A stretch of 64,000 nt of DNA, taken from NCBI RefSeq assembly GCF_032854445.1, contig NC_088305.1:5767606-5831605 (forward strand). The letters run 5' to 3'. Positions 7,086-36,264 of the stretch are shown here, in pieces. Every line of letters begins with the position of its first letter. The stretch's first letter is position 1. The notes beneath the pieces are model-generated. The model was not told where the DNA came from. It saw only the letters and a program-made list of their open reading frames with translations, and searched no databases. A program made the translations under genes and the position numbers. The DNA is from Liolophura sinensis (lineage: Eukaryota > Mollusca > Polyplacophora > Chitonida > Chitonidae).

Positions 7086-7093
7086 TTACTTGT
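7086..7093 (-). CDS. secreted-peptide precursor, tentative last coding exon (exon 6)
   Basis: On the minus strand a pyrimidine-rich acceptor (CTCTTTATTTTTTCAG) is followed by AC AAG TAA. Exon 5 ends in phase 1 with a single A, so the joined codons would be AAC (Asn), AAG (Lys), stop. The acceptor ends with the same AC dinucleotide start as exon 5, which keeps the frame. The coding part is only 8 nt, so chance is a real risk. The alternative is read-through of the exon 5 donor, which adds six codons and stops at 12534-12536. No other phase-compatible terminal exon was noticed between 12.5 and 7.1 kb. Confidence 0.35.
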
Positions 7094-7289
7094 CTGAAAA
7101 AATAAAGAGAATATGGTATTGATCAGAACTTGTTTAGACAATTAAGTCACTTTCGTGAACGCCATTGACAATGATTAATTATAAGGAACTGACGCATGCA
7201 ATGAGAACAACGACAACAATGGAACACACGTTAAGATGAGACAACCACAAAAAAGGAAATAAACAGTCAAAATTTAAAAAAAGAGAGAA

Positions 7290-7490
7290 ATAATAACAAA
7301 GAAACGTGTCAACAATACTGATAAACTAAAACTGATATTATTAAAATTTAAAAATAATAATAAAGGAACGTGTAAAATAATATTGATAAACTAAAACTGA
7401 TATTATTAAAAATTAATAATAATAAAGAAACGTGTAAAATAACGTTGATAAACTGAAACTGATTTTATTAAAATTAAAAAAATAAAGTTC
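7290..7490. repeat. AT-rich tandem repeat, about 63 bp, three copies
   Basis: The segment AACGTGTNAA..AT...TGATAAACTRAAACTGAT followed by TTATTAAAATT recurs three times. It sits just upstream (minus-strand sense) of the tentative exon 6 acceptor, inside the presumed last intron. Confidence 0.85.
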
Positions 7491-8806
7491 AATGTAGAAT
7501 GGACTGAAAAGAACGGCATGAATTATCTTAGGCATTACAATAGCAACAATAACAATGTTTTTAACAAACTTGACAAAGTTTACTCTGACTAATTACTGTA
7601 ATCAAGCCAATGAATTAACCATTAGGCGCCGTTGCCAGCGAGTTCGACTGTCGTATTTAGAGTTAATATTTCATTAGTCATGATTAAAGACAATCGTTAT
7701 ACGACACATAATGAGGGGGAAGGATCATCGGAAAACGGGGATTACTAAACACTAGTACTGGGTAGGCCTTTTGACGAACACGGACGACAAAGCCTATCGG
7801 ATCATGGAACCTTGTGATAAAAATCACCCGAACAGTAGTTCACACAAAACCAGTCATGCTGCCAATATAATGACAGCATGCCGATCACGCTGTGCTTGTA
7901 GAGACATGATCAGTTGTGAACTTGCCAAAACGAAATAAATTGGAGGAATAGTGGAAGTTGAAAAGAATATACCTGTACCCTTAATCCTAATATAAGTCAC
8001 TTCTTACTGAATGTCTAAACATATATATACCATACACCTGGAATTGTCATTTGACTCTTCCTTACAGACACGCAAAATGATTTCGTAAATTTTCCCACAA
8101 TTAATGTTAGTGCTCAGTCCCATGTTTCTCACCGGAAGTGATTGATGGATGTGTATTTGAAAAGTCATGTGTTATTACCCTCCACAAACGAGCTCTTCCA
8201 GAGAAAGCCAAAGTCGTAGATCTTGCCGCTTGAAGGACTTGAATGTTTAGATGACGAGAACAGTCCCAAAAGGACAAGCATGAAAAAATTCTAAAAAAAA
8301 ATCGAACTATTTTTGTGGACGTAATTTATTAGAGAACCTTGTCTCTCCACGACAGACCTTTCGAAACTGTCTATTCTGTGCTCCGTCGAAAGACACCTGA
8401 TTTTATGCTCCGAGTGAAAAGTGACGGCACCCATGTTAGTCAAAAAATAAAATACTTCGGCAAACCGGTACAAAGTCCAGTGGTCGAAGTGGAAGTAATA
8501 TTGGAACTGAATAATATTCATATAGCTTATGCAGAGGCAGAGTGTGTCGGCTGCCGTGCTTCACATTTCCAGCCAAATATAATACACTTCATAATACACT
8601 TATAACATACATACCTAAAGCCCAATCTCAGTCAACGAATTTGGCAAAATTTGGCCAGTATTCACGTTCCGGATTCGTTCAGTCACAGCACGGAGGTTAT
8701 ATCCTATCTCCATGGTCACAGTAAGTTTACTTTATAACGAGCGTTAAATATTTGAGTTTTAGGACGATGTGGAACGGATTAAATGTATGGCAGCACTTAA
8801 TCCGAA
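7491..8806. other. unassigned DNA, presumed intron 5 of the peptide gene
   Basis: Short overlapping open frames at 8291-8724 show no family resemblance or splice-site context. I see no supported feature. Confidence 0.4.
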
Positions 8807-11137
8807 AGAAACACTCTTACCATGGTAAATCAATGGATCCTTACACAGACATATCCCTGACACAAACAATCTTACCATGGTAAATCAATGGATCCTTACA
8901 CAGCCATATCCCTGACACAAACAATCTTACCATGGTAAATCAATGGATCCTTACACAGACATATCCCTGACACAAACACGCTTACCATGGTAAATCAGTG
9001 TATCCTTACACAGCCATATCCCTCTCACAAACACTTTTATAATGGTAAATCAGTGTATCCTTACACAGCCATATCCCTGTCACAAACACTCTTGCCATGG
9101 TAAATCAGTGGATCCTTACACAGCTATATACCTATCACAAACGCTCTTATAATGGTAAAGCAGTGGATCCTTACACAGCCATATCCCTGTCAGAAACACT
9201 CTTACCATGGTAAATCGGTGGATCCTTACACAGCCATATCCCTCTCACAAACACTTTTATAATGGTAAAGCAGTGTATCCTTACACAGCCATATCCCTCT
9301 CACAAACGCTCTTATAATGGTAAATCAGTGTATCCTTACACAGCAATAAACCTGTCACAAACACTCTTACCATGGTAAATCATTTTATCCTTACACAGCC
9401 ATATCCCTGTCAGAAACACTCTTATCATGATAAATCAATGGATCCTTACACAGCCATATCCCTGTCATAAACACTCTTACCATGGTAAATCATTTTATCC
9501 TTACACAGCTATATCCCTGTTACAAACACTCTTACCATGATAAATCAGTGTATCCTTACACAGCTATATCCCTCTCACAAACACTCTTACCATGGTAAAT
9601 CAATGGATCCTTACACAGTCATATCCATGTCACAAACACTTTTATCATGGTAAATCAATGGATCCTTACACAGACATATCCCTCTCACAAACACTCTTAC
9701 CATGGTAAATCATTTTATCCTTACACAGCCATATCCCTGTTACAAACACTCTTACCATGATAAATCAGTGTATCCTTACACAGCTATATCCCTCTCACAA
9801 ACACTCTTACCATGGTAAATCAATGGATCCTTACACAGCCATATCCCTGTTACAAACACTCTTACCATGATAAATCAGTGTATCCTTACACAGCTATATC
9901 CCTCTCACAAACACTCTTACCATGGTAAATCAATGGATCCTTACACAGCCATATCCCTGTTACAAACACTCTTACCATGATAAATCAGTGTATCCTTACA
10001 CAGCTATATCCCTCTCACAAACACTCTTACCATGGTAAATCAATGGATCCTTACACAGTCATATCCATGTCACAAACACTTTTATCATGGTAAATCAATG
10101 GATCCTTACACAGACATATCCCTCTCACAAACACTCTTACCATGGTAAATCATTTTATCCTTACACAGCCATATCCCTGTTACAAACACTCTTACCATGA
10201 TAAATCAGTGTATCCTTACACAGCTATATCCCTCTCACAAACACTCTTACCATGGTAAATCAATGGATCCTTACACAGCCATATCCCTGTTACAAACACT
10301 CTTACCATGGTAAATCAGTGTATCCTTACACAGTCATATCCATGTCACAAACACTTTTATCATGGTAAATCAGTGGATCCTTACACAGTCATATCCATGT
10401 CACAAACACTTTTATCATGGTAAATCATTGGATCCTTACACAGCAATATCCCTGTCAGAAACGCTCTTATCATGGTAAAGCAGTGGATCCTTACACAGCA
10501 ATATCCCTCTCACAAACAATCTTATCATGGTAAATCATTGGATCTTTACACAGCTATATTCCTGTCATAAACACGCTTACCATGGTAAATCAATGGATCC
10601 TTACACAGACATATCCATGTCAGAAACACTCTAACCATGGTAAATCGGTGGATCCTTACACAGCCATATCCCTGTCACAATCACTCTTATCATGGTAAAT
10701 CATTGGATCCTTACACAGACACATCCCTGTCACAAACAATCTTATCATGGTAAATCGGTGGATCCTTACACAGCCATATTCCTGTCATAAACACGCTTAC
10801 CATGGTAAATCAATGGATCCTTACACAGACATATCCATGTCAGAAACACTCTAACCATGGTAAATCAATGGATCCTTACACAGCCATATCCATGTCACAA
10901 ACACTTTTATCATGGTAAATCATTGGATCCTTACACAGCAATATCCCTGTCAGAAACACTCTTATCATGGTAAAGCAGTGAATCCTTACACAGCCATATC
11001 CCTGTCACAAACACTCTTACCATGGTAAATCAGTGTATCCTTACACAGCCATATCCCTCTCGCAAACACTCTTATCATGGTAAATCATTGGATCCTTACA
11101 CAGCAATATCCCTGTCACAAACACTTTTATCATGGCA
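8807..11137. repeat. 55-bp satellite-like array, about 42 copies, with higher-order repeats
   Basis: The unit contains the 12-bp palindrome TTACCATGGTAA, then ATCAATGGATCCTTACACAG and a CATATCCCT segment; starts are spaced 55 bp (8821, 8876, 8931). Inside it, 9541-9869 is identical to 9981-10309 apart from its last few bases, a 440-bp (8-unit) higher-order period, and 110-bp dimers repeat around 9760-9980. It lies in the presumed intron between exons 5 and 6 of the peptide gene. Confidence 0.97.
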
Positions 11138-11213
11138 GACCAGTGCGTGGTTAAGCCGATGATAGTCTATGATGAACATACACGCCAAAACCCCACTTGT
11201 CTTTCTCTTTAAA

Positions 11214-11640
11214 TTATGCGGTGTGTGAGATAAAAAGAAAAATGGGGTTAGTGAACAGAAAAGTTCTAGAGAAATGGTGTATGTGAACAGTTATAGAATA
11301 TGTGTTGGAGACAAATGAAATAAGTGAGGAAAAAGTGTGCAAAAATGTACAGATCTTGGGATGAGACACTTGAAAGGAGTAAGGAAAATGTGTGAGCAAC
11401 TGGTGTGGTGAGAGAATTGAAAGAATAAAAATAAAGTGTGCAAGAAAATGTAGGAGGTGAGACACTTTCAAGGAGCAAGGGAAAAGTGTTGAGCAAATGG
11501 TGTCGTGAGAGAATTGAAAGAATAAAAAAGTGTGCAAGAAAATGTAGGAAGTGAGACACTTTGAAGGAGCAAGGAAAAAGTGTGCAAGAAAATTTATGGA
11601 CAGGTGTGGGGCGAGATACATGGAAGAAGTATCTAAAAGG
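11214..11640. repeat. degenerate repeat of about 95 bp, roughly three copies
   Basis: GAGACACTT ... GGAGYAAGGRAAA ... GTGAGAGAATTGAAAGAATAAA ... GTGTGCAAGAAAATGTAGG recurs at about 11362, 11459 and 11551. The minus-strand frames of 135 and 162 aa here are purine-strand artefacts rich in Phe, Leu, His and Ser, not a recognisable protein. Confidence 0.8.
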
Positions 11641-12512
11641 TGTATGGAGAGGTGGGGTTAGAAGGAAAGTAGACGGAAAAGTGTGAAGTGATTGTAAAAC
11701 AAGGATCAGGATAGGAAGAAAACATGTCTTTCTGACAACTGAAAAAATCTTCAAACTTCAAACCCAGCAATGGGTACACCGAAAATACGCATGGTACATG
11801 TACGCCCCCTTGCGCAAACCTGCATTCGTGCACACACAAATAAAAACTATAAGTTTCAGGTTTGCTGACGTTACTTTTCGTCTCTTTCATATTGCTAACA
11901 AGGTCTGAGTGTTTTAATTATATTACCTGCACACTTAGGTAACAAAAAGCTTGCAAAATGTCGGGTAAAATGTGTTTAACGTCATCAGATTTATTTTGTA
12001 ACGATAGTATTATTACTTGGCGGAGTTTAATTGAGATGCAAATATCGAAATAAAAGACAAAAATCTTACACGCTAGCCTTTTCAATGGCCTCTCGGACGG
12101 TTGGGGTAACTTTGGGTCTACTTTTAATTACCATATTGTAAGCTAGTTTTAAAATCGGTGAGTTCAGAATTCATTCCAATAAAGCTCGGATACGGTTCGT
12201 TTTAATGTTTTTTGAAAAAACAATAAACGCCGGGGATTCCAAACGTATATTTATGATTTACTTTAAATGCTTTTCTTTAGTGTGATTTATTTCACTTTGT
12301 TTTTCATTTGAAGAAACAGTACCATATACATTTTAATAATTTATACTTTTACACTAAATAACGTTACATAACATTAAGAAATCGATATCTTTTTATCTAG
12401 GAATAAATATGTGGTGCTGTTTAAATGTAGGACTGCAGATATTCAATCCAAAAAAAAAATAATGTGCTCGTGTTTAAAAATATCTTGTGTGAAAGCATGC
12501 CAAATACACATG
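11641..12512. other. unassigned DNA, presumed intron 5 of the peptide gene
   Basis: AT-rich with no supported exon or known repeat. Confidence 0.4.
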
Positions 12513-12536
12513 TGACGTCATAAACTGATGACGTCA
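12513..12536. promoter_or_regulatory. pair of CRE-like palindromes
   Basis: Two exact TGACGTCA sites at 12513-12520 and 12529-12536, 16 bp apart, lie just past the donor of exon 5. TGACGTCA is the full cAMP response element bound by CREB/ATF proteins. Function here is inferred only. The second site overlaps the stop codon used if exon 5 is read through. Confidence 0.4.
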
Positions 12537-12550
12537 CCAGAGGTACTCAC

Positions 12551-12649
12551 TGTTCTTCCAGCACACGTACGGCATGACGCGATTTTGTGAGATTCTCCTG
12601 TAGCAGAGTCCCTGAGACCCACGCTTAGCGTCAGAGGGAGGAGTGTCGT
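12551..12649 (-). CDS. secreted-peptide precursor, exon 5: second cyclic peptide
   Basis: Acceptor TCTGACCCAG precedes, and the donor A|GTGAGTAC follows. The exon is 99 nt and symmetric (phase 1 in, phase 1 out). It encodes DTPPSDAKR, a Lys-Arg convertase site, then GSQGLCYRR, ISQNRV and MPYVCWKN (precursor residues about 113-144; cysteines 127 and 141). The two cysteines probably form a ring with 13 residues between them. The peptide matches the one in exon 4 at GxQGLC, the following aromatic-Arg-Arg, V.P and CW, so the exon looks like a tandem duplicate. Mature peptide 2 would carry four basic residues before the C-terminal end. If the donor is not used, six codons follow before a TGA at 12534-12536. 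I do not recognise the family. Confidence 0.72.
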
Positions 12650-14499
12650 CTGGGTCAGAGAGAGAGAGCAGGAGAGTAGGGGAAGACAGACAAAGAGAAA
12701 GATAGAAGGGGAAAAGCTGCATTCTTCCTCAAAAACTGCCAAAAAACTAGGCGACGCTCTAATCGATGTTTTTCATACAAGGAGAAAACTCTCGCGGAGA
12801 TGTTGGATCGCTTACCAAAACCTTGCATGCTCCAGTGCACATAACATGTAGCCAATTTCGTTTGTTTGAGGTCGAACATGAACGGGGAATGCAAGTCATG
12901 TACTGGTTTGGTTAGAATTTATAAACAAGCTGAAGAAGGCAGCGAAAGGATTTTTAAAATGATGTGGCTTCTCTTAAATGTCCTCCCATTCAACATTTTG
13001 CAGAAAAGGTCGGAAGTGGCTAAAACTTTTATCTTGTTCTGTCTGACAGGTTGTCCTACCACAGCAGAAAGAAGTGACACGTTCGTGGCAGTTATAAATG
13101 GAATCGGACAGAGCCGTATTCACAGCCTGGGAGGTGGATGAATTCCATCGGCGTAAAACTCCCGCTAAATAAATAAAGAAAATGAATTGAACACGCCAAT
13201 CGTCTCTTGCAAGCATACGTCTACATCAAACGAATACAAATTGACCCCATCCAAGACAAAATTCTTACATATTGTTTCAAGCTATCCCTCACTTGGTTTA
13301 TCAGAGACCCCATTGTCCACATACCTAACAGAAAACATCATGTTTTGGCCAAATTTTTGCAAATCTCCAATTTTAAACGTGAATGTGCTTAAAGTGATTT
13401 TAATTCCAGTCAGAAGTGGGTATTCAGCCGCATGAATCCGCCTGAGACAGACACATGTGAGCAGACTGCTAAAGCTAGATCAGAAAATAAATCTACCAAC
13501 AGCTATCGGATTAAGAGTCGATTACGTCATATGCAAACTTCCTTTTAGTGCCGTGTTTGGAACACTGCAAAAGACGAACTCACAAAAGAGTTCGATGATC
13601 GAAGAGCTTAAGGAATAAAAGGGGCAGTCTTCCGAAGTTGTGAGGAAGGTACGTTATCCACCAATCTGAAAACGTCCATTTCCTCTTAGCTGCTGGGTCC
13701 CCTAGTCCAAGCTAAATCTGTATGCGTTTGTCATCAGATGGAGAATTCTTTCCATAATCAAACCTTACGTTTACTTCACCTAGGCCGCCTGTAAATAATG
13801 AATGCGAGTGGGACGTCTAGCGGTGAAGCGACAGCGGGCTCCGCAGAAATCGCACGGTGATACAACTCACTCTGTTAGGAGTTAATCAATGAAGGCCATT
13901 TCCGAGGAGTGCACAGTTAATGTCTTCAATTACTGACAGACGTTGTTTATCATTTAGCTAACGGGCTAGGGGCTGATTCAACGCAGATCACGAACGACGT
14001 TAGGGCAAATGGTGACGCTCCTCAGAGAGGGTCTCGTGACTTAAAACTGACAGAGCACTTCCTGCCCAGTCTGCTGATGTGATATGGTAGTGTGTTTTTT
14101 TTGTTGCATATTCCAAAGCTTTCGCGTCAGAATGTAGGACCCTACTAAATGCTGACCAGAACTGAGCTCATACTGAGGACTTTAAAGCATTCACGTTTAA
14201 AATTTGAATTTTGAACTTTTTGGGGGGTAAATTGTGACAAAGTGTCATTTTTATTCTGGGGTTTATAGACCGTGCAAATGTTGAAAGTATGGCGTGTGTA
14301 GGTGTAGGTACGTATTATGAACAAGGCGAACGGACTATTTATTTCATCTACACAAAGTGATTCGTATTTGTTTCATGGCTCCATCTCCGGTGGGGCGTGG
14401 GAAGGTCTGGCAAAAATCTACAGATGATCATGGGTTTTGAAAGCTTGAAAGTATCTCAGATCACCTCAGGCCAAGAATGTACTGAACAGTATGTTGTGA
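12650..14499. other. intron 4 of the peptide gene; no internal feature supported
   Basis: Short open frames on both strands at 12655-13435 flank exon 5 but have no splice context or family match. Most of the stretch shows no recognisable feature. A fragment near 14370-14440 resembles the V-SINE core (CGTGGGAAGGTCTGGCAA). Confidence 0.5.
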
Positions 14500-14735
14500 G
14501 GTAGACATTCATCATCATGCAATAAAAGTGTCTTATCTGAGAAGTGCACGGGATTCTGCTTAAGTCATGGTGCTAGAGTGTGCGCTATTTGTAACTATTC
14601 AAGCATTTACATGAACAGTTAGCATACCAACTATAACTGAGGTAAATTGACATGAGGGGATATTGCACAGGCTACGGGTGACCAGCTATCATACTTTTCT
14701 CTCTATGATGCTGTCTTTTATGGTTTGTTCGTTGT
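14500..14735 (+). mobile_element. R260 interspersed repeat copy
   Basis: Shows the family order: AATTCTGCTTAAGTCATGGTGCTA-like section, ACATGAACAGTTAG, CTGAGGTAAATTGACATGAG, GTGACCA, and a worn ACTCTCTATG end. Diverged from the 31.1-kb copy. Confidence 0.65.
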
Positions 14736-14770
14736 AATAAAGTATCATCTGGAGGCGATTTTGCTAGATC

Positions 14771-14880
14771 TTTCACAAAGCGGCGTACGACATTTTCTTA
14801 TCGTACGTTTGTCGTATGATATTTTGTACGTCACTGTTACGAGTGACGCGTCATGCTGTGTCCGGTTTCTCTGACATGGC
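14771..14880. mobile_element. fragment of the CTTTCACAAAG hairpin element
   Basis: TTCACAAAGCGGCGTACGAC and TCGTATGATATTTTGTACG match the left half of the fuller copy at 58248. The right inverted end is missing. Confidence 0.5.
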
Positions 14881-14999
14881 GTATGCCATGGCCTTGTACG
14901 AATTCCATATTGAAAGTTGCCTTACAGAATGACATCAGAACAAAATAACTGTGGCCGTTTACGTCTGTTTCCACTCACCTTTCAGATTAAATAATATAT

Positions 15000-15060
15000 C
15001 TATTTATTCAATTGGTGTTATTCTACTCAAGAATATGTCGCTTATACGACGGCAGCCGAA
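15000..15060 (-). mobile_element. V-SINE 3'-end fragment
   Basis: Only the terminal section remains: TATTTATTCAATTGGTGTTA, then CTCAAGAATATGTCGCTTAT and ACGACGGCAGCCG. Confidence 0.75.
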
Positions 15061-15815
15061 TTAAATAAAATAAAATTATTTGTTGTCTTTTCCTTTAACT
15101 ACTGAGACATGCACAGGAAAGAGGGACGACATTTCCAAAACCCCAGAAAAGGTTTGAGTGTAACGACTGACAGTTACTTTGGGTAATCCACAATATCCAG
15201 GGCCACGCAAGATTCCTGTATATAGACGGAGTTCTCTGTCCGATGATGATGGAACTCTTCGACGGAAGTGCTAATGGCCATCACCCTTGCACACAGACAA
15301 ATAATTTTGACAACGCGCAAGACATAACATTACGTAACAACATTTTAACGCTCTACGAGATAATGGCAAAACACGGCGCATGCGTGACAATATCTATCCC
15401 TGAGGAGAACTATCGCTGTTACCATTCGTGACAGGCTTTGTCCTTTAGATTCTTATAACTGCAACAGTAATTATGTATAAAAATATAGAAACAAATTCTA
15501 GTGATTAACAGCATAGAAATGCATTGCCAATCACACAGTAAGCGAAGGGATAACGGGATAAAGGAATTACCCTGATTTAGCTGCGGATGGATCGAGGAAT
15601 AGTTCTGACTTCTCCGGAACTCATTTTCTTCTGTCAAAATCTACCGAGAAACTCAGTTAACGTTCTGACTAATTATGGTTTAAACAGCTTTCAGCTGATA
15701 AATCCTAAGTTGGGATTTTGAACATTTTTGCTCCCTGAAATTATTCTGTTGGTGTTAGTCTGAACACTTTTACGTACATTAAAAAAAAAAGAAAAAATGT
15801 GATAAGGAGCCTTAC
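15061..15815. other. intron 4 sequence next to exon 4
   Basis: Short open frames at 15243-15431 (+) and 15419-15637 (-) are unremarkable. A run of 12 A lies at about 15780, close to the exon 4 donor. Confidence 0.45.
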
Positions 15816-15960
15816 TTCCTCTCCAGCAGAAGAAAGGACGGACTTTGCCATTTGAACGGCGCCAGCACAGACCCTGTCGCCCCCGCTTGTCGGCCTTTAC
15901 TTCTTTTGCTTCCTCATCGCTTGGCAAAATTTCGGAGTTAAGTTTTCCTTCCACAACCAG
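15816..15960 (-). CDS. secreted-peptide precursor, exon 4: acidic spacer and first cyclic peptide
   Basis: Acceptor ATCTTCTTTTCAG precedes and donor A|GTAAGG follows; 145 nt, phase 0 in, phase 1 out. It encodes an acidic spacer (SDEEAKEVKA), a DKR convertase site, then GRQGLCWRRSNGKVRPFFCW and RG (precursor residues 64-111; KR at 88-89; cysteines 95 and 108). The one-disulfide ring would hold 12 residues. Asn-Gly in mid-ring is a common beta-hairpin turn, and the peptide has six basic and no acidic residues up to CWRG. The acidic spacer facing a cationic product is usual for both neuropeptide and antimicrobial precursors. Ring size and the C-terminal CW recall several cyclic peptide hormones only superficially; I cannot name the family. 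Confidence 0.78.
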
Positions 15961-16227
15961 CTGAAAAGAAGATGATATCGCTTGAATTTGTATATCCATT
16001 TTATTAATTATTGTTCTATTAACACATTACTATAATACGAACTTGTCACTTGCACGACGGTGGTGAAGTGGATAAAATCCGAGGAAAACCATCGTGCTTT
16101 GACAAGTTACTGGTAAACTTTCTAAAGTGACGTTCAGATCTCCACACCATATTGGTGGAACACGAGTGGTATTTAACGAACTTTACACTGACACACCAGG
16201 ATCGTCGACCGCTTATTGTAAACAAGA

Positions 16228-16345
16228 GGCTCCCGTAACACAGAAACCTGTCACCAATGCGGTTGCAGTGTGTTCAAGTCCAACTCATGCTGGCTTGCTC
16301 TCCGGTCGTACTTTAGAGGTCTGCCAGCAACCAGTCTGCCAGCAT
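16228..16345 (+). mobile_element. V-SINE fragment (tRNA-like head side)
   Basis: CCTGTCACCAATGCGGTTGC, TGTTCAAGTCCAACTCATGC and TGGCTTGCTCTCCGGTCGTA match the middle of the full-length copies. It breaks off after CCAGCAACC. Confidence 0.8.
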
Positions 16346-16354
16346 ACTAATTAA

Positions 16355-16450
16355 ACATACACACGAGCGACCATTTGCCAACTATCAAGCTGTCCTCGGT
16401 GCTCGGGCTGTACTCTTCCATGATGTATGTCTTTTATATTCTTTCCTTAA
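16355..16450 (+). mobile_element. R260 3'-end fragment
   Basis: GACCATTTGCCAACTATCAA, a worn CTGTCCTCGGTGCTCGG (for CTGTCGTCGCTGCTCTGG) and TGTATGTCTTTTATATT match the last third of the repeat. Confidence 0.55.
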
Positions 16451-16675
16451 CGCTGAACGTTGCTTTAGGAATTTATTTTGCTATTACTGACCGTACATCA
16501 TGGTTGACGGCAGGTATACTAACGTCTGTTACAACGCCCTCAATTCATCACTACATGTGATCGTTGCATGTTCTACCGGGGTTCTTTAATAACCACTTTA
16601 CAATGAGCTGGCTACGTTAGGAACACGTGTTTCAGTTAATGACATTATTTCATAACATAATTCTACTGCAGTTTT

Positions 16676-16948
16676 GGGGGCCCTCCGTGGCCGGAGAGTT
16701 AGCACGCCAGGGCAACACAATGACTCAGGAGCCTGTCACCAATGCGGTCGCTGTGAGTTCAAGTGCAGCTCATGCTGGCTTCCTCTCCAGCCGTAAGTGT
16801 GAAAGTATAGCAGCAACTTGCGGATGGTCATGGGTTTTCACCAGGCTCTGTCCGGTTTCCTACTACTATAATGCTGGCCGCCGTGGTGTAAATGAAATAT
16901 TCTTGAGTAAGGCGTAAAACACCAATCAAATAAATAAATAAATAAGTA
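16676..16948 (+). mobile_element. V-SINE, near full length
   Basis: Head CCTCCGTGGCCGGAGAGTTA, B-box-like GTGAGTTCAAGTGC, V-domain core GCGGATGGTCATGGGTTTTC, 3' part TATTCTTGAGTAAGGCG and AAATAAATAAATAAG tail. It lies in intron 3 of the peptide gene, ending about 60 bp from the donor of exon 3. TGCAGTTTTGG before and TGCAATTTTTG after may be an old target-site duplication. Confidence 0.9.
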
Positions 16949-17008
16949 ATGCAATTTTTGTAACACTAGGCACACCATAACGCTGTAAGCCAGGCGCTCG
17001 ATACCCAC

Positions 17009-17107
17009 CTCTTGAATAGAGGAGAGAATCAAACTTTTGAAGGCGTCTTCAAGTTCTCTTGTATCCATATATTTCGGCCTCTTGTCTGCGGATATTTCAG
17101 ATTCACC
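17009..17107 (-). CDS. secreted-peptide precursor, exon 3: spacer with dibasic site
   Basis: Acceptor ATCTGTTTGCAG and donor GAG|GTGGGT bound a 99-nt, phase 0/0 exon of 33 codons (precursor residues 31-63). It encodes GESEISADKR, with Lys-Arg at 39-40, then PKYMDTRELEDAFKSLILSS and IQE. The second part is likely an amphipathic helix and continues into the exon 4 spacer without another dibasic site, so it is either a linker of about 48 residues or a released peptide. The ADKR form of the cleavage site is repeated before peptide 1. The exon joins in frame with both neighbours. No family resemblance was recognised. Confidence 0.75.
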
Positions 17108-17182
17108 CTGCAAACAGATAGAAAACAGACACATTTTACATTGTAATGCTATTAAAGACATATGGGATAGAAACATAAGAAC

Positions 17183-17330
17183 TGAGAGTTAAACCAGAAT
17201 AGCGACGAAAGTGGGACAGTTGACAAATAGTCGCACGTAACCGGTGAAATACGGCCTCTTCTCAACTTACCTCAATCAGGGTTTTGTTTCTAACTGGCTA
17301 TGTACATGGATAAATTGGTGCAAAGGAGGT
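17183..17330 (-). mobile_element. R260 fragment, reverse orientation
   Basis: GAGAGTTAAACCAGAATAGCG, CGCACGTAACCGGTGAAATA, CTTACCTCAATCAGGGTTTT match the reverse complement of the repeat's 3' half. It is 75 bp from exon 3. Confidence 0.65.
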
Positions 17331-17589
17331 CATTTCATGCAGTTTGGTTTTAAAAGTAATAGTGTAAGCATCTGTTGTTGGAAATCCAAAATTGCACTGA
17401 TGTTTAAAATTAATATAAATCAAGGTAAGCCATAGAAACTTTATTATTACCGACAGTGGCATAAGTCACAAATCTTTAGTGCGGTGTTAAATACTAATCA
17501 AAGAATAATTAGGAAATAAATAAATAAGATTTACAAATTTAGTAATAAAAAGAAACTCTGCAATGTTTCTAGAAACGTTGAATTTAATA

Positions 17590-18918: not shown

Positions 18919-20272
18919 CAACTTTATCTCTCAACGTCAGCACCTTATCTCTCCACCCATACATCCCTCTCAACACCTTATCTCTCCACTCATGCATCCC
19001 TCTCAACACTTTGTCTCTCCTCCCATACATCAGTCTCACCACCTTATCTCTCCTCCCATACATCAGTCTCACCACTTTATCTCTCCACTCATACATCCCT
19101 CTCACCACCTTATCTCTCCACTCATACATCAGTCTCACCACTTTATCTCTCCACTCATATATCACTCTCACCACCTTATCTCTCCACCCATACATCCCTC
19201 TCACCACCTTATCTCTCCACTCATACATCAGTCTCACCACTTTATCTCTCCACCAATACATCACCCTCAACACTTTATCTCTCCACCCATAGATCAGCCT
19301 CACCACTTTATCTCTCCACCTATACATACCTTTCACCACTTTATCTCTGGCCCCGTATATCAGTCTCATCACTTTATCTTTGCACCCATAGATCAGCCTT
19401 ACCTTTTTATCTCTCCACCCATACATACCTTTCACCACCTTATCTCTCCACAAATACATCACCCTCATCATATTGTCTCTCCTTCCATACATCACTCTCA
19501 CCATACATCAGCCTCACCACCTTATCTCTCCACCCATACATCCCTCTCACAACCTTGTCTCACTTCCCATACAACACTCTCACCACCTTATCTCTCCATC
19601 CATATATGCAACTCTCACCACCTTATCTCTCCACCCATACATCACTATTATCATCTTGTCTCTCGTCCCATACATCCATCTCACCACCTTATCTCTCCAC
19701 CCATACATCACTATCACCATCTTGTCTCTCCACCCACACATCACTCTCACCACCTTGTCTCTCAACCCATACACCTCTGTCACCACCTTATCTCTCCACC
19801 CATACATCACTATCACCATCTTGTCTCTCCACCCACACATCACTCTCAACACCTTGTCTCTCAACCCATACACCTCTGTCACCACCTTATCTCTCCACCC
19901 ATACATCACTATCACCATCTTGTCTCTCCACCCACACATCACTCTCAACACCTTGTCTCTCAACCCATACACCTCTGTCACCACCTTATCTCTCCACCCA
20001 TACACCTCTGTCACCACCTTATCTCTCCACTCATACATCACTCTCACCACCTTATCTCTCCACCCATACATCCCTCTCACCACCTTATCTCTCCACTCAT
20101 ACATCAATCTCACCACTTTATCTCTCCACTCATACATCCCTCTCACCACCTTATCTCTCCACCCATACATCCCTCTCACCACCTTATCTCTCCACTCATA
20201 CATCAGTCTCACCACTTTGTCTCTCCACTTATATATCACCCTCACCACTTTATCTCGCCACTCATACAGTCG
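18919..20272. repeat. 33-bp tandem repeat, about 41 copies
   Basis: Unit CACCTTATCTCTCCACCCAT plus ACATCACTCTCAC with variants. Thirty-three bases is 11 codons, so frames stay open on both strands (plus strand S-P-P-Y-L-S-T-H-T-S-L; minus strand R-D-K-V-V-R-V-M-Y-E-W), giving false proteins up to 508 residues. Around 19640-19990 a 132-bp (4-unit) block repeats about three times. It lies in intron 2 of the peptide gene. Confidence 0.97.
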
Positions 20273-20490: not shown

Positions 20491-20495
20491 CTTAC

Positions 20496-20592
20496 CTCTT
20501 CTCCGCTCATAGGGGCGGATAACACTTGGGCAGTTAAAAATAACGTCACAAAAACAGATACAACGATCGTCGTCTTCACTTCCATGTTCCGT
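20496..20592 (-). CDS. secreted-peptide precursor, exon 2: start codon and signal peptide
   Basis: Acceptor TTTTATTATTGCAG is followed by 7 untranslated bases and ATG at 20585; the coding part is 20585-20496 (30 codons), and the donor is GAG|GTAAGC in phase 0. The product is MEVKTTIVVSVFVTLFLTAQ then VLSAPMSGEE: a charged start, a hydrophobic core of about 15 residues and a probable cleavage after ...VLSA, which is a secretory signal peptide. The start is chosen because it is the first ATG after the acceptor and is directly followed by the signal. An upstream non-coding exon is required and a good candidate lies at 36122. The combination with the downstream dibasic sites marks a regulated secretory precursor. 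Confidence 0.8.
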
Positions 20593-20721
20593 CTGCAATA
20601 ATAAAAGTAAAAACAAACCATGTACAACCAGATGACAAAGATCAGATTAATACCTACCGGAAACTGTATGAAGCGGAATTTTATGAAAACAGCCTGAAGT
20701 TGGGTTTTATTGTTGTATTTT

Positions 20722-26384: not shown

Positions 26385-26560
26385 GCAAACGAGATCAAAA
26401 CCAGATCAGCGACGACAATGTCATAGTTGGAAAATGCTCACGTTATCGATTAAATACGGCTTCTTGTCAATTTTACCTCAGTTAGGCTTTTATTCTAAAC
26501 ATGGGTTAAGCAGAGTTAGGTAAATATACACTGATGCTAATGACGTAAAAAATTACCCAG
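26385..26560 (-). mobile_element. R260 copy, reverse orientation
   Basis: CAAAACCAGATCAGCGACGA, ATACGGCTTCTTGTCAATTT, TACCTCAGTTAGGCTTTTAT, GGGTTAAGCAGAGTTAGGTA and TGATGCTAATGACGT. Confidence 0.7.
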
Positions 26561-27892
26561 CATGCACACAGGGTGAAAGTAAACGTTAAACACACAGAAG
26601 AGATTATACATGCCTGGGAGACGGTCAAACAAGCATTCTTTGGGACAGGAAGTGAAAATCTCTAGTTCTTCAGCTCTAAATTTCTAATATCCATTTATGT
26701 CTACTACAAGTATTTTTAAATCAGCCCGTACATATCCGCATCTTAAATTGGACCTCCGACAAGTTAAATGTCGTATCGCAAAATCATAACTTACATGATT
26801 ACATTTTGCGTGCACTCTGGCAGAGCTGTGGCAAATCGTGAAAAGCAACTCGCACCAGAGCCCCGAGGAATACACACATACAATCATGATGATATTATCT
26901 ACCAGTGTACACTCTTTCCAATCTATTACCATATCATTAGTATGACTAATTTAGCCGTGGCTATAGAGAAAGCCCGCTTCCAGTCAGTCCGTCACACCCG
27001 GCTGGATTGCACATGCGCTCTGGGACAGGACAGGCTGTTTGAACTCCCCGGAGTGACGCAAGTCAATCGGATACCGAGCAGTCACGCGAGAACATCCTCA
27101 TCGGACGAGCTACCAGTGCTGTTTGCAATCATTCATAGAACGGATCGCCAGGGCTTCCCCTCGGCAGGTTATATCATATATCTGTGTTTTTGTTCTATCC
27201 AATTTGCCTGATGAGCTACCTTTAACACCACTCACCTCTGGTTATAACGTCATTTTGCGCAGATCACGTCTGTGTGACTTACAATACGGGATGAAGTTTG
27301 TCCGAATATATCCAGCTGCAAGCATGCGCATTTCAAAACATCACGCAACGATCGAGAACAAATTGAACAATTAACATGCCTCAGGACGACAGCAACATCG
27401 ACATTCTCCAATGTATAAATGCTCGTCTCAACTTAGCACAAATTCGTCGAAACACAGCTTACATGTATGTGTAATAAACAGTACTTATTATTTACTTAAA
27501 GGTGAAATGTCGGGATATCCTTAACCGATAGAAGTGATATTTCACTCAGTTAGATATCACTTTCACTATCATACTTTGATACGTCACACTCAGTTATCAT
27601 CTCTACGTCTCAATCGAAATATATTTTTGGTATTTAACCTTTACTTTGCAATGCCATCTGTATGGCTACGTAGAAGGTTGAAAATGATGTTTTTATTTGA
27701 TTATGGATTTGTTATAATAGTACAGAACTGTTTCGTGCCAAATAAGTGAGGCGACGTATCCCCTCATCCAATAAACCGGAACACGATCATAAAAGCGAAG
27801 AGGTATAGTTTCAGTTTTAACATTATCAGTTACCGTCTCCCGAATAACAATATAACGAATGGTCCTGCATGTAGTCTGTTAAGGGTAAAAAC
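26561..27892. other. unassigned DNA, presumed intron 1
   Basis: A plus-strand open frame of 147 aa (26768-27211) lies in GC-richer sequence, but its composition looks random and there is no splice or homology support. Confidence 0.4.
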
Positions 27893-28118
27893 AACCCTAC
27901 AGTGACGACTGTAGCACAAAGGTCTGTCACAGTGAACGACTGTAGCACAAAGGTCTGTCACAGTGACGACTGTAGCACAAAGGTCTGTCACAGTGACGAC
28001 TGTAGCACAAAGGTCTGTCACAGTGACGACTGTAGCACAAAGGTCTGTCACAGTGACGACTGTAGCACAAAGGGTCTGTCACAGTGACGACTGTAGCACA
28101 AAGGTCTGTCACAGTGAA
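27893..28118. repeat. 30-bp tandem repeat, about 7.5 copies
   Basis: CAGTGACGACTGTAGCACAA plus AGGTCTGTCA repeats nearly perfectly; single-base insertions in two units shift the frames. Units are very homogeneous, which suggests a young array. Confidence 0.97.
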
Positions 28119-28200
28119 TTTTGTGATGGTGAGATGCTGATGCGATACATGAACATCCATTTCACACGGTAACTTATATATTTATGACTTCCTTTTCCAG

Positions 28201-28329
28201 GGAGACGTAGATGAAAGGGCCAAGTTTCCCGCCAAAAACCTTCCTGTGCTCAGGTTTACTTCGGACCGACCAAGAGTTGATAAATCCTTCTTCAGAAGAA
28301 GCCTTATACGGCGGGTGCGAGCGCGTTAA
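28201..28329 (+). other. possible exon or exon relic, unrecognised
   Basis: An acceptor-like tract (TTATGACTTCCTTTTCCAG) is followed by 42 open codons and TAA: GDVDERAKFPAKNLPVLRF, then TSDRPRVDKSFFRRSLIRR and VRAR. It is short, no partner exon was found on the plus strand, and the family is unknown. It could be chance. Confidence 0.22.
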
Positions 28330-29349
28330 CAAAGTCAAGCTCTTTGCCGCTTACGCCGCACGCTGATAATGACGCTGCGACCACGGTAGTTTTGAGAGGC
28401 AATCGCTGTGATAGGCCAGAAATTAACTCCTTATCTTTGCTTAAATATCCGATTCTGTAGGATATTTTGTCTGAAATGTTACTTGATCAAGATTTTTCCT
28501 AAGGATATTAGCCAGTCTGCGTTTTTCCTGTTTTAGAGTTTGTGCCCGTACGTAAATGCGAGGTATCTTTGGGAGGTGAAAGAGTGGTACAACATTGTTC
28601 TGACTAAGCGCGTGAAGCCTGTTTTAGTCAGTCATCATGAATTTCATACGTTTCTTGTAGGCCAGATATTCATTGTGACCATTGTTGAGTCGAGACTCCA
28701 CTCGTGGTATTTTTGCTTACATGGTTTTACACTGTACTGGTGTAGAGGTTTCATAACAACGATTGGTATTCGGAGTTGCCAACCATACTGGGCGTTCCGT
28801 GTCAATAATCGCCAGGCGAATGGCGAGGCTCAATCCGTGATATTTTGCCTACAAAAGTTTTTACACTATACAAACTTTAGAATTCATAAAATACATTGGT
28901 AAACCAAGATAATAAACGTTCATTTCGATAATCACAAGGCCAATTCCCAAGACACTGTTGCACATAAACGAACCAAAGGAACTAAGAACGCATATAACGT
29001 GTGAAAATTAGGGCGGGTTTATGTAAAGGAATGCAGCCAAATATTTTCCTTGATGCCGGAAGCTCATTTTAATGAATGTTTCAAGCACGCAAATTGAATT
29101 CCTATCCAGATAGTTGCAGCATGGTGGGAATTTCGTACATTGGTATTAATAGGATGATGGCGATAAGAGTGGGGAGTCCGACATTCGTATCGCACTCGTA
29201 AACCAAGTCGTTTCCCTGTCATTAGTATAAAACTTTCCCCACGTCGCTATCAATAAGGTTGAGTTTGAGACAGTACTAGACCACCAAATAATAGAACAAA
29301 TGAACTGCATTCAAGAACATAACCAAAATTAGTTAATAGAAAATGAAGG
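28330..29349. other. unassigned DNA, presumed intron 1
   Basis: A plus-strand frame of 120 aa at 28540-28902 has no recognisable features. Nothing supported. Confidence 0.4.
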
Positions 29350-29488
29350 TGGCTGCGGATGGTCATGGGTTTCCCCCGGGCTCTAACTGTTTTCCTCCTG
29401 CCATAAGGCTGACCGTCGTCGTATAGGTGAAATATTCTTGAGTAGGTCTAGGACGTAAAACATCAGTCAAAACACCAAATAAATCATA
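29350..29488 (+). mobile_element. V-SINE, 5'-truncated
   Basis: CTGCGGATGGTCATGGGTTT, CCATAAGGCTGACCGTCGTC, TAGGTGAAATATTCTTGAGT and a worn CACCAAATAAATC tail. Confidence 0.88.
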
Positions 29489-31129
29489 TAAATTTAGATC
29501 AGGAAAGATACAAGTTCCTGAAATCAGTCTAATCTTTCCTCATGGACGACTGTGGGAGTCACCTTATGGAGGGAAGTTAAGCCCACGGACCTAATTAACC
29601 CATGTATTTGCGTGATGAAAAAGTGTTTTTGGCAACCAATTTGTGAAAAAAAGAAAGCCCTGAGTTATTAGAGTAATGAATTAAAACGTCATGGCGTAAT
29701 CTTCATGACATGAACATAGACAAAAATTATAGACTTCAGGGATCTGTATTCTAGGTACTGGCATTTTGGGGGTAGGGTATAGCTGGTAGGAGAACAACAA
29801 TTCAATTTTGGGATTTTACTTCTGAGGGATTAGGGGAGGTGGCGCTTTCTGTGATGTATGTTGTGATAGGTAAAATATTTTAGAGAACTTTGTGAATTTG
29901 ACCTCGTGTCTTGTGAATTTGACCTTGTACCATCTGAATTTGACCTTGTACCTTCTGAAGTTGACTAACAGAGGTTTATATTTTATGCCGAAGTTACCAA
30001 TACCCTTCAGGAAGAACACAATGGGAACGTGTGTGAAATGGTAAGTTTAATTGTTGTAAGAACACTTCAGGTCATGGACTCTTCTTGAAATCAGAGTAGC
30101 ACATGCGCAGTCAACATTACTTCTACGGATTTCTAACGAGGTTCGTGGTTGCAAGGTTTCTGCCTTTATACGTTGCAACAGAGCTAAACAGCATCATACA
30201 ATCGCAATTTTCGCTTTGTTTCACTTAAATCAGACAGTGAATCGGCAGGCGGAAAGATGGATTTGTGAAGTTTTATAAATGTGGCTCGTAAAAGATCCCC
30301 TGTGTCTGCATGTGACTCGTCTAAGGAATTGATGCCAACTCAGGCAATGTATGCTGACTTTCTCACTCTGTCTCCCCCTGCGGACATTCTTAAGACATCA
30401 TCGTTCTCATTGCCAACAAAAACAAGACTAATTTGCCTGGATGTTTCTCATTCCAATTTCTTCACTGCACGTTACGACCCAATGTGATTTGTTGTAGCCT
30501 GTCCTCTCGTCGAAATCCACATCCCACAGTGGGGGTGGGGATCGGTGGTGTAATTTGGACGGCATTCCAATATGAACAATGGCATATTTTCACAATGGCA
30601 AACATAGTTCTGGTCATTAACATGATATAATTATGGCCTTTCATTTGCCTGATTCGATTACCGCTGCTCTGATTACGCAACTGTATTTCACTGCTGTGAC
30701 TTGTTGAATCTAACATAAGCGCAATCACCGATGAGAAGCGAGGAGGATGCAAAAAGGAAAAGAGGTGTCCACTGGATTAATGGTCAAGAAATAGGATCAA
30801 AAAGGAATATTTATATGCAACTGTTTCTTACATTTTTCATGACAGTGTTCAAAAACGGGAACGAATTTAAATTAAACTATTCTGTTTTTTTCGAGTTGGT
30901 AACAAATTGTGCAGCGTAAGAACGTGTATTATTTGGTTGTATTTGGAAATTCTACACCTCTTGACAGACTAGTACTGTCCTTGTGACAGTTGGTTTTATC
31001 TTCTGACACTGTCATCAGCAAGGACGACGAGCAAAGATATACCGAGCTATATTTGACTTGCAGGTTTTCTTCTGTTACGATATTTTCCATAAACCAGCCA
31101 CCGTCACCGGCTCTGTGACTTAAATGTCA
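29489..31129. other. unassigned DNA, presumed intron 1
   Basis: Contains three short copies of a CTTGTGAATTTGACCT-like motif near 29890-29960. No exon supported. Confidence 0.4.
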
Positions 31130-31375
31130 TGTGATGTTAGATGTGATTACCGCACATCACTCTGAGTAATTCTAGGCCAGTGACGTCTAATAAATTGCAG
31201 TTAACATCACTGCATTTTTTTTACCTAATTCTGCTTCCGCTAATGGTGCTAGAAGGCGTATAAATTGCTACTCCTTATGTACTTACATGAGCAGTTAGAA
31301 TAAAACCCTGACTGTGGTAAACTGACAAGAGGTTGTATTTCGCCCATTACGTGTGACCATTTGCCAAATATCAAA
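31130..31375 (+). mobile_element. R260 copy leading into a tandem array
   Basis: CCAGTGACGTCTAATAAATT, TTTTACCTAATTCTGCTTCC, CATGAGCAGTTAGAATAAAA, CCTGACTGTGGTAAACTGAC and GTGTGACCATTTGCCAAATA. The family's 3' end is amplified in the array that follows. Confidence 0.82.
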
Positions 31376-31715
31376 CTGTCGTCGCTGCTCTGGTTTCACT
31401 CTCTATGCTGTACGTCTATCGCACTGTCGTCGCTGCTCTGGTTTAATCTCTATGCTGTACGTCTATCACCCTGTCGTCGCTGCTCTGGTTTTACTCTCTA
31501 TGCTGTACGTCTGTCACACTGTCGTCGCTGCTCTGGTTTCACTCTCTATGCTGTACGTCTATCACACTGTCGTCGCTGCTCTGGTTTTACTCTCTATGCT
31601 GTACGTCTATCACACTGTCGTCGCTGTTCTGGTTTTACTCTCTATACTGTACGTCTATCATACTGTCGTCGCTGCTCTGGTTTACTCTCTATGCTGTACG
31701 TCTTTAATTATATTA
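31376..31715. repeat. 47-48-bp tandem repeat, seven copies
   Basis: CTGTCGTCGCTGCTCTGGTT, TCACTCTCTATGCTGTACGT, CTATCAC recurs from 31376, with starts at 31424 and 31471. The unit equals the 3' end of R260, which occurs once in other copies. The plus-strand frames of 124 and 130 aa here are artefacts. Confidence 0.95.
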
Positions 31716-34700
31716 TATTACTATTAGGCGATAAATCCAGCCATAAGAAGTAAATAAATGCTGCTTTTATTTCCGTGGCATCTGCAACCACGGAACCAAC
31801 CAATGTTACCGGAACAATTTAATGACTGAACGCACCGAGTTAAATTCTAGGTAAAAAATTTTAAAGAAATATGGCTGAACGCGGTAAGAAATATGATACA
31901 ATTCAGTGTAACACGTACTATTTATTTATTTATTTATTTAAATGGTGATATGTTTGCTGTTTAACTATGTTATACTTGAAACATTTCTATTTATTACAGT
32001 TCGAGGAAACTGCAGTACCCGGCGTAAACCACCGACCATTGGCAATTTTCTCACGGACATTCTCACATATGACGTACAGATATGCAGATATTGGTGGGAG
32101 ACAAGTGGTCTTTAACCAAAGTAAGACTGCACAAAGAGCCACGCGAAAGTCCTCGGTCGCTTAATATCATCAGGTTTTTGGCACTTTAGACAATATCACA
32201 AATAAATATTTGTAATGTCCTGAAAAAAACAAACCTTTCCATCGAAAAATACTCCGTGTTTAATTTGAAAGAAATTCTGAATGAATGTGCTTGGTGTAAT
32301 GATTTCTGGGTTACAATTCGGGCGTTTGACAGCATTCATCAGCACATATACACAGTGGCAATTAGGAAAATATGCCGTCCAACTGTTTATCAGACACAAA
32401 CAATGCAGGACATATCACTTAACGGATGATACGGGTATTGTGAATGGCGTTTGAATGGCGGTTAAATATACATGAATATGATTGGGTCATTCCTCACGGG
32501 AGGTAACTTGTCTACATTTATCTGTGGACAATAGCTTCCTGATCTGATCCATTGAGGGTAATATCAGCTCTGAGCAACAAAATATCTACAACGGCCGGGA
32601 TACAGGTTATTTACAGGTCGCAATGTACAATGTCAGTCCCCTACGGAGTCGAACATTTGTCATGTGTATGAAGACACCTAATAGCGCAGAAGTTTACAGT
32701 GTAAAAATGACAATTTAAAATGAGTTTAAAACTGCGATTCGAAGAAATCGCTGTCTGCGAGACCATTCGGAGCTCTTTGAAACTCTTCGGGGGATTCCGA
32801 TGGGCGGTCAAGCCTACTCTCCGGAAAATTAGATCAATCATATCATTTGTGATATTTCTGGTTGAATACTAGTGCTTCTGTTATTGATCGTATTATATAG
32901 TTTTTCTGTAAAACAAACTTTGTTACTAAACCCGGAAAGTACTTGAAAATATTTGTTAGAGTATTATCAGAATTATTCGGCAACGATCGTTTTCAGACAC
33001 TAATCCTCTCAGTTTGAAGCTACGCTGAACGTGCCACGTGATTCGAAATCATTTGCAGCTCATCGAGGGACATCGACAAACGTGAAACACAGAGCGTGTT
33101 CAGAGCGTCTGTATGACGGGTGCGCGATCTTCTATAAACATGTCAGGCAGCTATAGCCTAACTCTAGTCAAACCTTGGGTTGTAAAAGACACATGTACAA
33201 CAGATCAGCGAAACACCCTCGTTTAACGTTAAAGCGTGTTGATGAATTTAACCGTCATTATGGTATAAAAAAAATCTCTGTTCGCCAACCGCCGATTGCT
33301 TGTGACCTCACTCAACACAGCGTTTCGGGTTATTTGGTTCACGTAACAAAATAATATGAAAAGTGGATGTGAGTTGCCAATTCAGACATTTTGATCGATT
33401 ATTTATGTCTTGTCTCTCTGTTACAATCAACATTTTGTATAATTCAGAAAGTATGTACCTCCACAACACTTTTTAGACCGTTAGGCGCTAACCGGTACGT
33501 CGTTTAGGAATGATTGGATGGAGTGTTATGGTGTAGACTATAGCGTGTTTAATGACAGTACACAAAGTAGCGTACCTCATTAATTTGACATGTTTAGCCG
33601 GGGGACGTTCTCAATTCATTTGACTGACACATTCCAATGATGACAGGGATTGTCAATGGAAGAGTAGATAAATAGATGAGTCCTGGCATCGACACAGCAC
33701 GCTTTAACAGGTAGTATCGGAACACCTGACTTTCGACAGGAAAACGGTGATGTTCACGTCCACTAGAATATTTAAATGATCTAAATCTTCAAGCAAAGCA
33801 AGTAAATGCCATAAAAATATTGGTGGTGACATTTGGTGATACCTTATTTTAAAAGATGTCATCCTTCCAAACAAACAAACCTCAAAACACCTTTCTGAGA
33901 TCTTTTGAACTCTTAGAATTTAAAAATAACAAGTGGCCAGGGCCTCGTTAAATCGTTAAAGAGAGGACCGGTCAGCAGCTGGCAGAGTTGCACAGATTAA
34001 GCTGTGTTACCGTTTTAAAACTCTTCACTTGATTTCTGCGCCAAACTCGTTTTGTCATCCTGATAAAATGACAGCTAAGGTAAATAACTGTACCTGACTT
34101 TGCCCCGTCAAACATCGTATGATGAAACAGTTAATAGCACACTGAAAAAAGTAGTCTTAATGTTAACAGAAAGACTGTTGTCTGAATAATACTGGAATGT
34201 ATAATATAATACGATGTCATATTCAAAATAATATCCAGCTAGTCTCATACAATGTTTAGATTAAAGTGACAGGATAAGTGTGTTACACCTAGCAGAATAA
34301 TCTTCCGCGATGAAGAAATATATTCTAGCGTCACTAAGATAACGAAAATGACTGTTAAATTTAACAGACCATTTTCTTGGAGACTGATTCGATGATTTAA
34401 ATTAATTTGGCTCCACAACAGTAATCACCGCTGAACTTTTTGTCATTCCAGTGTCCGTACTATTCATTGTGTTGAATGTGATCGCCAGTTTTTATATATG
34501 ACCATCTGCCAATGGCGGTCAAAGCGCAAATGAGATACATATTTTGATAGCCGCAAGTTATGTACTACCCTTAGGCCTATATACGGTTTGGATACTTCTT
34601 TAATTCATTCGCTTATACAAAGTTCCTGGCATCTTTCCTTCAACATTGAAAAAAATACTTATCTTTCCATGAATCCGTCTTAATTTTCTAACTTTATTTA

Positions 34701-36121
34701 GTTTATAAGTTCTTTGGAGTCTTGTGGTCTTGCAATTATTCACTCGGGATGACATCTGGTATATATCCGTTTCAGCGCCTAGATACTTATAACCCCTGGG
34801 GAATAAATAACTCAATGCACGGTGGTCGGAGGAAATCCACATGGTTTTGGTGATGACATGATCTAATCTAAAACCACGCGATATGATTGGTCTGTGTAAA
34901 GTAGTTACACTGAGGAGCGCCTTATAGACTACTTAGACTCGTAACTTTGCTGAGGTGGCAACTGGAATGATACGAATAAAGCATATTTTCGTTTTCGTCG
35001 CGTTATGCTCAGCACTGAAACGTAGCCCACAGCATAGAAAACAAACGTTTTGATGTGATCAGATGGTATTTAAGCTGAAAGAACTATTTAGTAGGTATTT
35101 ACTCCTTTCGTTCTTTCGTGTAGAACGTCACTCTTTTCGGTGCATCTGCACTCACAAAACACTACGTATGCAAGCGCTGGAGATTTAGAACAGAAATAAC
35201 CAACCTAGTCGCCTCATAACATATCAGGCATATCAAATGTGACGCGGGGATGGGAAAACCCTAAATTTACTAACAATGTACAAAAGCCCAAACTGTTCAC
35301 GTGAAGCTTTACTCTCGATATTTAACATTGAAATCAACCTGATAATGACTTTATCTCTGAGTCAATACAGGTATATCCATCTGAATGGCTCTCTGTAAAC
35401 CACAAGCATTGCGCATGTCTAGTATTAAGGAGTACCTGACCTGACAGCAACGTATGTGATATTTCAAGGTTAGCAAATTGCATCGAGAAATAAAGTGAAA
35501 TCATCTTTCTTTCAAGAAAGGGAGCGCGTCATGGACAAACAGTTTGAGGCGTTTGAAGTGCGGGTTCAAATCAAGCCCTGGGCCAGGGATTTCCCACTCT
35601 CAATAGTTGTGGGCCCTTGGTGACAATAATCGGTCGCGTATTGCCCAGCCGTTCGCGTAGTCTAACATTTGTTGAAGACCACACGTCCGCCATAAATATT
35701 CATTTGCATATACCTAAGAATCATATGTGGGGAAAGTTCGTCAGTAACTCGAAGAAGTCCGGTGGTTTCCCCAGGGCACTCCAGTCACCTCCATCAACGC
35801 TGGAATAGTTATTTGTTGGAATATAAACAAATGCGCGAGACGTTTGTTGAATGAAGTACTGCGTTGTCCTCAAAGAGCAGAGTCGCGAGTTCAAAACCAA
35901 CTCTTACCTCGAAAAGTTTGTTGTTGGAGTATACTTAGTTGCTTTAAGCATATGGGGAAAATACGACGGTTTTGTGTTCTTTATAACCTACCAATAAATT
36001 CATGGGGGCAACAGAGGGCACAGGAACCCTGCTCATAGCACAAGTCATGTACATGAAGAAGGTGCTTAAGATCAACTTAATTGTTTGAGTCATCAAGAGG
36101 TTGGTATCGTCAGCTACTTAC
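31716..36121. other. unassigned DNA, presumed intron 1 next to exon 1
   Basis: About 4.4 kb with no supported exon, RNA gene or classified repeat. A TTTATTTATTTATTTATTT tract lies at about 31920-31940. Short sequences with tRNA B-box likeness occur near 35560 (GCGGGTTCAAATCAAGCCC), too isolated to call. Confidence 0.4.
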
Positions 36122-36235
36122 CTGTGGCTGTACGATCTGTAGGATGAGATGAACTTGCAGGCGATGTTCCCTGTACAGAGCTCCTATTGGGGTCTCAAAC
36201 CTCGGGACTTGTCGGATTGAATTCTCTTACTAACA
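36122..36235 (-). other. secreted-peptide gene, non-coding exon 1 (5' UTR)
   Basis: Ends at a consensus donor, CAGCCACAG|GTAAGTAG, and begins about 30 bp downstream of a TATA box. The roughly 114-nt stretch has no ATG, as expected for a leader. Exon 2 begins at an acceptor 7 nt before its ATG and so needs such an exon upstream on the same strand. The transcription start is estimated (36225-36240). Linking it to exon 2 across 15.5 kb is inference. Confidence 0.5.
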
Positions 36236-36255
36236 GTGGATGTGTGGACCTGCTG

Positions 36256-36264
36256 CCTTATATA
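36256..36264 (-). promoter_or_regulatory. TATA box of the peptide gene promoter
   Basis: On the minus strand TATATAAGG, about 30 bp before the estimated start of exon 1. Upstream lie a C/G-rich stretch (ACTAGGGGAGGGGAG at about 36320-36340) and an inverted CCAAT box at 36362-36366. TATA promoters are common in tightly regulated tissue-specific genes. Confidence 0.6.

Follow-up and report, generated by a model that had tools for sequence, protein, structure and literature searches.

Whitnin, which corresponds to SPTR in Lymnaea and to PKYMDT or proctolin in Lottia (PMC3434067), is a neuropeptide precursor that has already been described in snails, abalone and bivalves. In the gastropods covered by the available parts of that study (Haliotis asinina, Lymnaea, Aplysia and Lottia), the precursor comprises a signal peptide, an SPTR region, a dibasic site, the hexapeptide PKYMDT and a two-cysteine ERYM peptide, in that order. 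In Haliotis, some of the reported masses agree with an amidated ERYM peptide in both its disulphide-bonded and its open form, while PKYMDT itself went undetected according to the same parts of the study (PMC3434067). For the scallop Patinopecten yessoensis, the precursor is listed with PKYMDT, a segment starting with ELGD and a ring peptide (PMC5996578), and a single ERYM peptide is given per precursor in the accessible descriptions of both H. asinina (PMC3434067) and P. yessoensis (PMC5996578).

A PKYMDT precursor is also known in oysters (PMC4200219; compared here on PKYMDT only), and precursors named whitnin by their authors have been reported in the annelids Platynereis (PMC3890597, PMC6377233) and Urechis (PMC7737342), the comparison being in this case by name. 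These annelid reports conflict with the statement, in the available text of PMC8557429, that among lophotrochozoans no PKYMDT orthologue had been identified outside molluscs. PKYMDT has moreover been proposed in print as the molluscan homologue of insect proctolin (PMC3434067). As for chitons, a mollusc-wide survey whose data include them covers the PKYMDT/whitnin family (PMC6425005, in its accessible sections), and the open-licence literature, as far as its texts are accessible, yielded neither a description of a chiton whitnin nor a paper on Liolophura neuropeptides.

Here, we describe a gene on the minus strand of a 64,000-nucleotide stretch of DNA (the window, which is the whole sequence analysed) from the chiton Liolophura japonica, which, judging from its predicted peptides, is almost certainly a whitnin/PKYMDT (SPTR) neuropeptide precursor gene. 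While the peptide family is already known, three small points appear to be new: (i) a second ERYM exon, (ii) the possibility of skipping this exon (exon 4) in frame and (iii) the lack of an amidation glycine in the predicted products.

Gene model and predicted precursor

The exons of the gene and their reading frame are shown by our analysis, as are the cleavage sites of the encoded precursor. Exon 1 (20496-20592, minus strand, like the other exons) carries the start codon at 20585, a hydrophobic signal-type N-terminus and the start of an SPTR-like region; exon 2 (17009-17107) encodes the first Lys-Arg and an exact PKYMDT, followed by Arg and ELEDAFKSLILSSIQE; exon 3 (15816-15960) encodes the second Lys-Arg and a first ERYM-like peptide, GRQGLCWRRSNGKVRPFFCW; exon 4 (12551-12649) encodes the third Lys-Arg and a second ERYM-like peptide, GSQGLCYRRISQNRVMPYVCW. 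The coding part of the last exon (7086-7093) finishes an Asn codon and adds Lys and a stop codon ending at 7086, beyond which lie the 3' UTR and candidate polyadenylation-type motifs (ATTAAA at 6847 and AATAAA at 6413). Joined, the coding pieces of exons 1 to 4 (90, 99, 145 and 99 nt) and the 8 nt of the last exon translate into a predicted product of 146 aa, or of 113 aa without exon 4. Upstream, a putative non-coding 5' exon ending at 36122 is followed by a donor, CAG/GTAAGT after 36122, that matches the consensus perfectly and, together with a candidate TATA box, TATATAAGG, at 36264, it may represent the start of the gene.

By a simple consensus count, four of the five donors are within the best 5% of the 4345 GT sites on the minus strand and all five acceptors are within the best 4% of its 3651 AG sites; the donor of exon 3 is the weakest in the set, 17% of GT sites being equally good. 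The exon chain would presumably be spliced in vivo at the predicted junctions. It agrees with a preliminary description of this DNA, which had joined four exons in frame (20496 to 17107, 17009 to 15960 and 15816 to 12649) and had read in them a signal peptide, three Lys-Arg sites and two paralogous peptides with two cysteines each, all of which were found again, the paralogous peptides being those of exons 3 and 4.

The predicted N-terminus has the hydropathy peak of a signal region, the best 12-residue window, which starts at residue 6, scoring 2.69 versus 1.62 for windows starting past residue 25. It is followed by a short region ahead of PKYMDT, which is assigned to SPTR by its position only. 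Lys-Arg pairs are found at residues 39, 88 and 120 of the 146-aa product, and PKYMDT directly adjoins the dibasic site that precedes it (KR-PKYMDT). The view that this is a secreted precursor of the prohormone type is upheld, and the predicted gene is very probably real. A Pfam search with a 111-residue query reaching up to exon 3 returned no model above cut-off, a match to Thx being rejected as spurious (15.4 bits vs a cut-off of 29.7), and a scan of the window against Rfam returned no match at the gathering threshold.

In such a precursor, entry into the secretory pathway would be followed by cleavage at Lys-Arg, and probably also behind PKYMDT, where a single Arg stands. The products would be an acidic peptide from the SPTR region, PKYMDT itself and one or two basic peptides (23-30 residues), each forming a ring through its one disulphide. 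The [M+H]+ values calculated for these predicted products are 754.34 for PKYMDT, 2778.38 (without exon 4) or 3461.66 (with exon 4) for the first ring peptide in its disulphide form, and 2870.38 for the second ring peptide, the C-terminal Lys being counted as removed for 2778.38 and 2870.38.

Membership of the whitnin/PKYMDT family

Family identity stems from the match of the peptides themselves, since both an exact PKYMDT and a Cys-Cys ERYM peptide are present. Both chiton ring peptides align with the two published ERYM peptides that were compared (from Haliotis and Patinopecten), and five positions (Cys6, Arg8, Ser10, Pro16 and Cys19) are invariant across the four. The pair scores are 36 (exon 3 peptide) and 42 (exon 4 peptide) with Haliotis, and 29.5 and 33, respectively, with Patinopecten. 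In 5000 full shuffles, these scores were reached by 1, 0, 1 and 2 shuffles in the same order, and by 2, 0, 15 and 10 of 5000 when the cysteines were held fixed, each test comparing one short peptide with one short peptide. In the chiton, PKYMDT is followed by Arg and then ELED, while the next scallop peptide starts with ELGD (PMC5996578); the score of 35 between these two segments, which are again two single short peptides, was reached by 1 and 0 shuffles in two sets of 5000. Finally, when the window is translated in all six frames, the motif C.[RK][RQK].{4,9}P[YFW].C is found at the two ring peptides and nowhere else, while a match was seen in only one of 100 Markov controls (first-order, 64 kb each; mean 0.01 matches) and none had two, although this test was not blind because the motif was drafted after the peptides were known. 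It is the shuffle tests, the exact PKYMDT and the shared order of parts that make membership next to certain in our eyes. The preliminary description, which knew of no described family with such peptides and suggested that the family may be new, is not borne out on this point, since PKYMDT and the ERYM peptide have already been published as whitnin/PKYMDT.

The chiton precursor has its parts in the same order as the gastropod ones in the available descriptions (PMC3434067), including the Cys-Cys peptide that comes last, after the other precursor peptides, in Lymnaea and Haliotis. Without exon 4 it is also of similar length (113 aa vs 114 aa for Haliotis whitnin). It differs from gastropods by its second ERYM-like peptide, encoded on an exon of its own, by the predicted lack of an amidation site after the ring and, relative to Haliotis, by the residue after the last Cys, which is Trp in both chiton rings but Met in the abalone. 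With Patinopecten (PMC5996578, in the part available), the chiton shares PKYMDT, the EL-D segment and a ring with CxRR...PYxC, whereas the scallop has one amidated ring listed, which ends in CYKYG rather than in CWRGN and CWKNN.

Three readings outside the family have to be weighed against this. The preliminary description had left the choice between a hormone and a host-defence precursor, of which the hormone stands, since the precursor belongs to a known neuropeptide family, while nothing beyond positive charge speaks for host defence. The predicted rings are indeed basic (+4 to +6, counted as K/R minus D/E) with two cysteines each, as would suit host-defence peptides of a new, cationic and disulphide-closed family, but the same precursor carries an exact PKYMDT and the rings correspond to a neuropeptide already reported from nervous tissue in the accessible literature, which makes this reading very improbable. 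Even less credit can be given to a CCWamide (agatoxin-like) precursor, another lophotrochozoan neuropeptide, which the Cys-Cys pattern with a Trp close to the end might evoke, because the published text available gives CCWamide eight conserved cysteines and a C-terminus that is both aromatic and amidated, while each chiton peptide has two cysteines and no predicted amidation site after them; the cysteine count refutes membership. Hardly more plausible is a chance assembly of open stretches mimicking a precursor. The exons were joined by eye in a region rich in repeats and introns, and one donor is weak, yet PKYMDT is exact and in the right place, two published peptides are matched, two exons are paralogous and some 0.01 motif matches would be expected per window. 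Pleurin was also considered and dropped, its peptides being described as PRXamides in the text available. Other two-cysteine peptides include allatostatin C, MCH and urotensin-like peptides.

A duplicated ring-peptide exon

The main unusual feature of the chiton gene is that the ERYM exon is present twice. Over the 21 codons compared, a small count from which one codon is omitted owing to a gap in exon 3, the ring-peptide coding stretches of exons 3 and 4 are 56% identical at the nucleotide level (44% differing), with pS 0.70 and pN 0.37. The protein sequence is therefore better kept than silent sites, and exon 4, which appears to be a duplicate of the ring-peptide exon, has diverged as expected for an old duplicate retained for its protein.

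Exon 4 has 99 nt and is in phase 1 at both ends, so that skipping it keeps the frame, while exon 3 has 145 nt, runs from phase 0 to phase 1, and its skipping shifts the frame. On this ground, we rejected simple alternation between exons 3 and 4 (mutually exclusive use) at these junctions, and the options are therefore one ring or two, with no choice between rings. With exon 4 included, the first ring peptide would also have a longer tail (CWRGNDTPPSDA instead of CWRGN), unless this tail is trimmed.

Beyond the second Cys, neither predicted form has a Gly that precedes a basic residue, the last exon being itself a prediction, although ERYM peptides are reported as amidated in Lymnaea and Haliotis (PMC3434067) and in Patinopecten (PMC5996578), in the sections available. 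Hence, either amidation has been lost in chitons or the predicted last exon is wrong. We treat ERYM amidation as a processing feature, not as one that defines the family.

A scenario that would bring these features together, which we put forward tentatively and deem possible rather than probable, is that the ERYM exon was duplicated in chitons and its copy became a cassette exon, whose regulated splicing would yield one or two rings and alter the tail of the first, amidation having been lost in both. A variant within the whitnin explanation, and not an alternative to family membership, is that exon 4 is decayed or rarely used, the gene making a single ERYM-like peptide from a 113-aa precursor that ends in CWRGNK. 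It is compatible with the intact frame left by skipping and with a length close to that of Haliotis whitnin, but the frame of exon 4 is open, its acceptor and donor are both good, it has retained Lys-Arg, the two cysteines and the Pro-aromatic-x-Cys-Trp end, and it shows pN below pS relative to exon 3, all of which speaks against this variant and leaves it unlikely.

Possible functions

In the accessible parts of the reports on relatives, whitnin transcript levels track the spawning cycle in Haliotis (PMC3434067), the whitnin precursor of Platynereis is regulated by lunar phase (PMC6377233) and the precursor is expressed in posterior neurons of oyster larvae (PMC10396302), while the proctolin-type receptors of lophotrochozoans were still orphans in 2021 (PMC8557429). 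It is from such relatives that we infer the role of the chiton peptides. The peptides would be released by neurons as neuromodulators, with the abalone and annelid precursors suggesting a role in reproduction. Provided that the homology with proctolin proposed in print is correct, the receptor of PKYMDT would be of the proctolin type.

With this locus, a family proposed as the molluscan side of proctolin signalling gains a chiton whitnin gene together with its exon structure. Receptor tests could draw on the two ring variants that the duplicated exon supplies naturally, and the links with spawning in abalone and with lunar timing in an annelid make expression in the chiton worth measuring.

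Copy number in the genome

Protein searches of the genome (632 contigs, 609,464,459 bases) gave meaningful E-values at these exons only, two further rows having E-values of 3.67 and 8. Three places in the genome, namely the locus and two on contig C2, fitted a degenerate DNA pattern that encodes PKYMDT with Arg or Ser after it, while the reversed control pattern had no match. The C2 matches were rejected by eye as a second PKYMDT gene and are taken as chance, because they lie in repeated units and a stop occurs four codons after each match. No second whitnin/PKYMDT gene was thus found in the genome by the protein and pattern searches, a missing match not being proof of absence. The C2 region itself (near 12.81 Mb; L014, 3000-9000), also inspected by eye, consists of units some 0.6 to 1.2 kb apart, with PKYMDT words in one frame.

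Repeats and other genomic observations

The window contains several tandem arrays. A 33-base minisatellite of about 40 units (18937-20268) occupies part of the intron after exon 1 and generates meaningless ORFs of up to 508 aa on both strands. Two other long arrays are found, one at 8809-11135 in the intron that precedes the last exon (42 copies of a 55-base unit) and one at 2674-4415 (16 copies of a 108-base unit, with 96% matches). In addition, ORF lists inspected by eye reveal similar minus-strand stretches at about 16680-16950, 37059-37391 and 47282-47782, which read like FIYLFDWCFTP...GGQHYxGRKPGRA and are probably an interspersed repeat, one of them being situated within the intron that follows exon 2.

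Elsewhere in the assembly, COX1 matches recur every 15.5 kb or so, with seven on contig C99 (108,685 bases; one match is shorter) and one on C632. This pattern suggests that C99 consists of mitochondrial genome copies joined head to tail, an assembly artefact. Lastly, the eight PF14830 matches that were scored form one cluster on one contig, which we take to be a single eight-unit molluscan haemocyanin gene.
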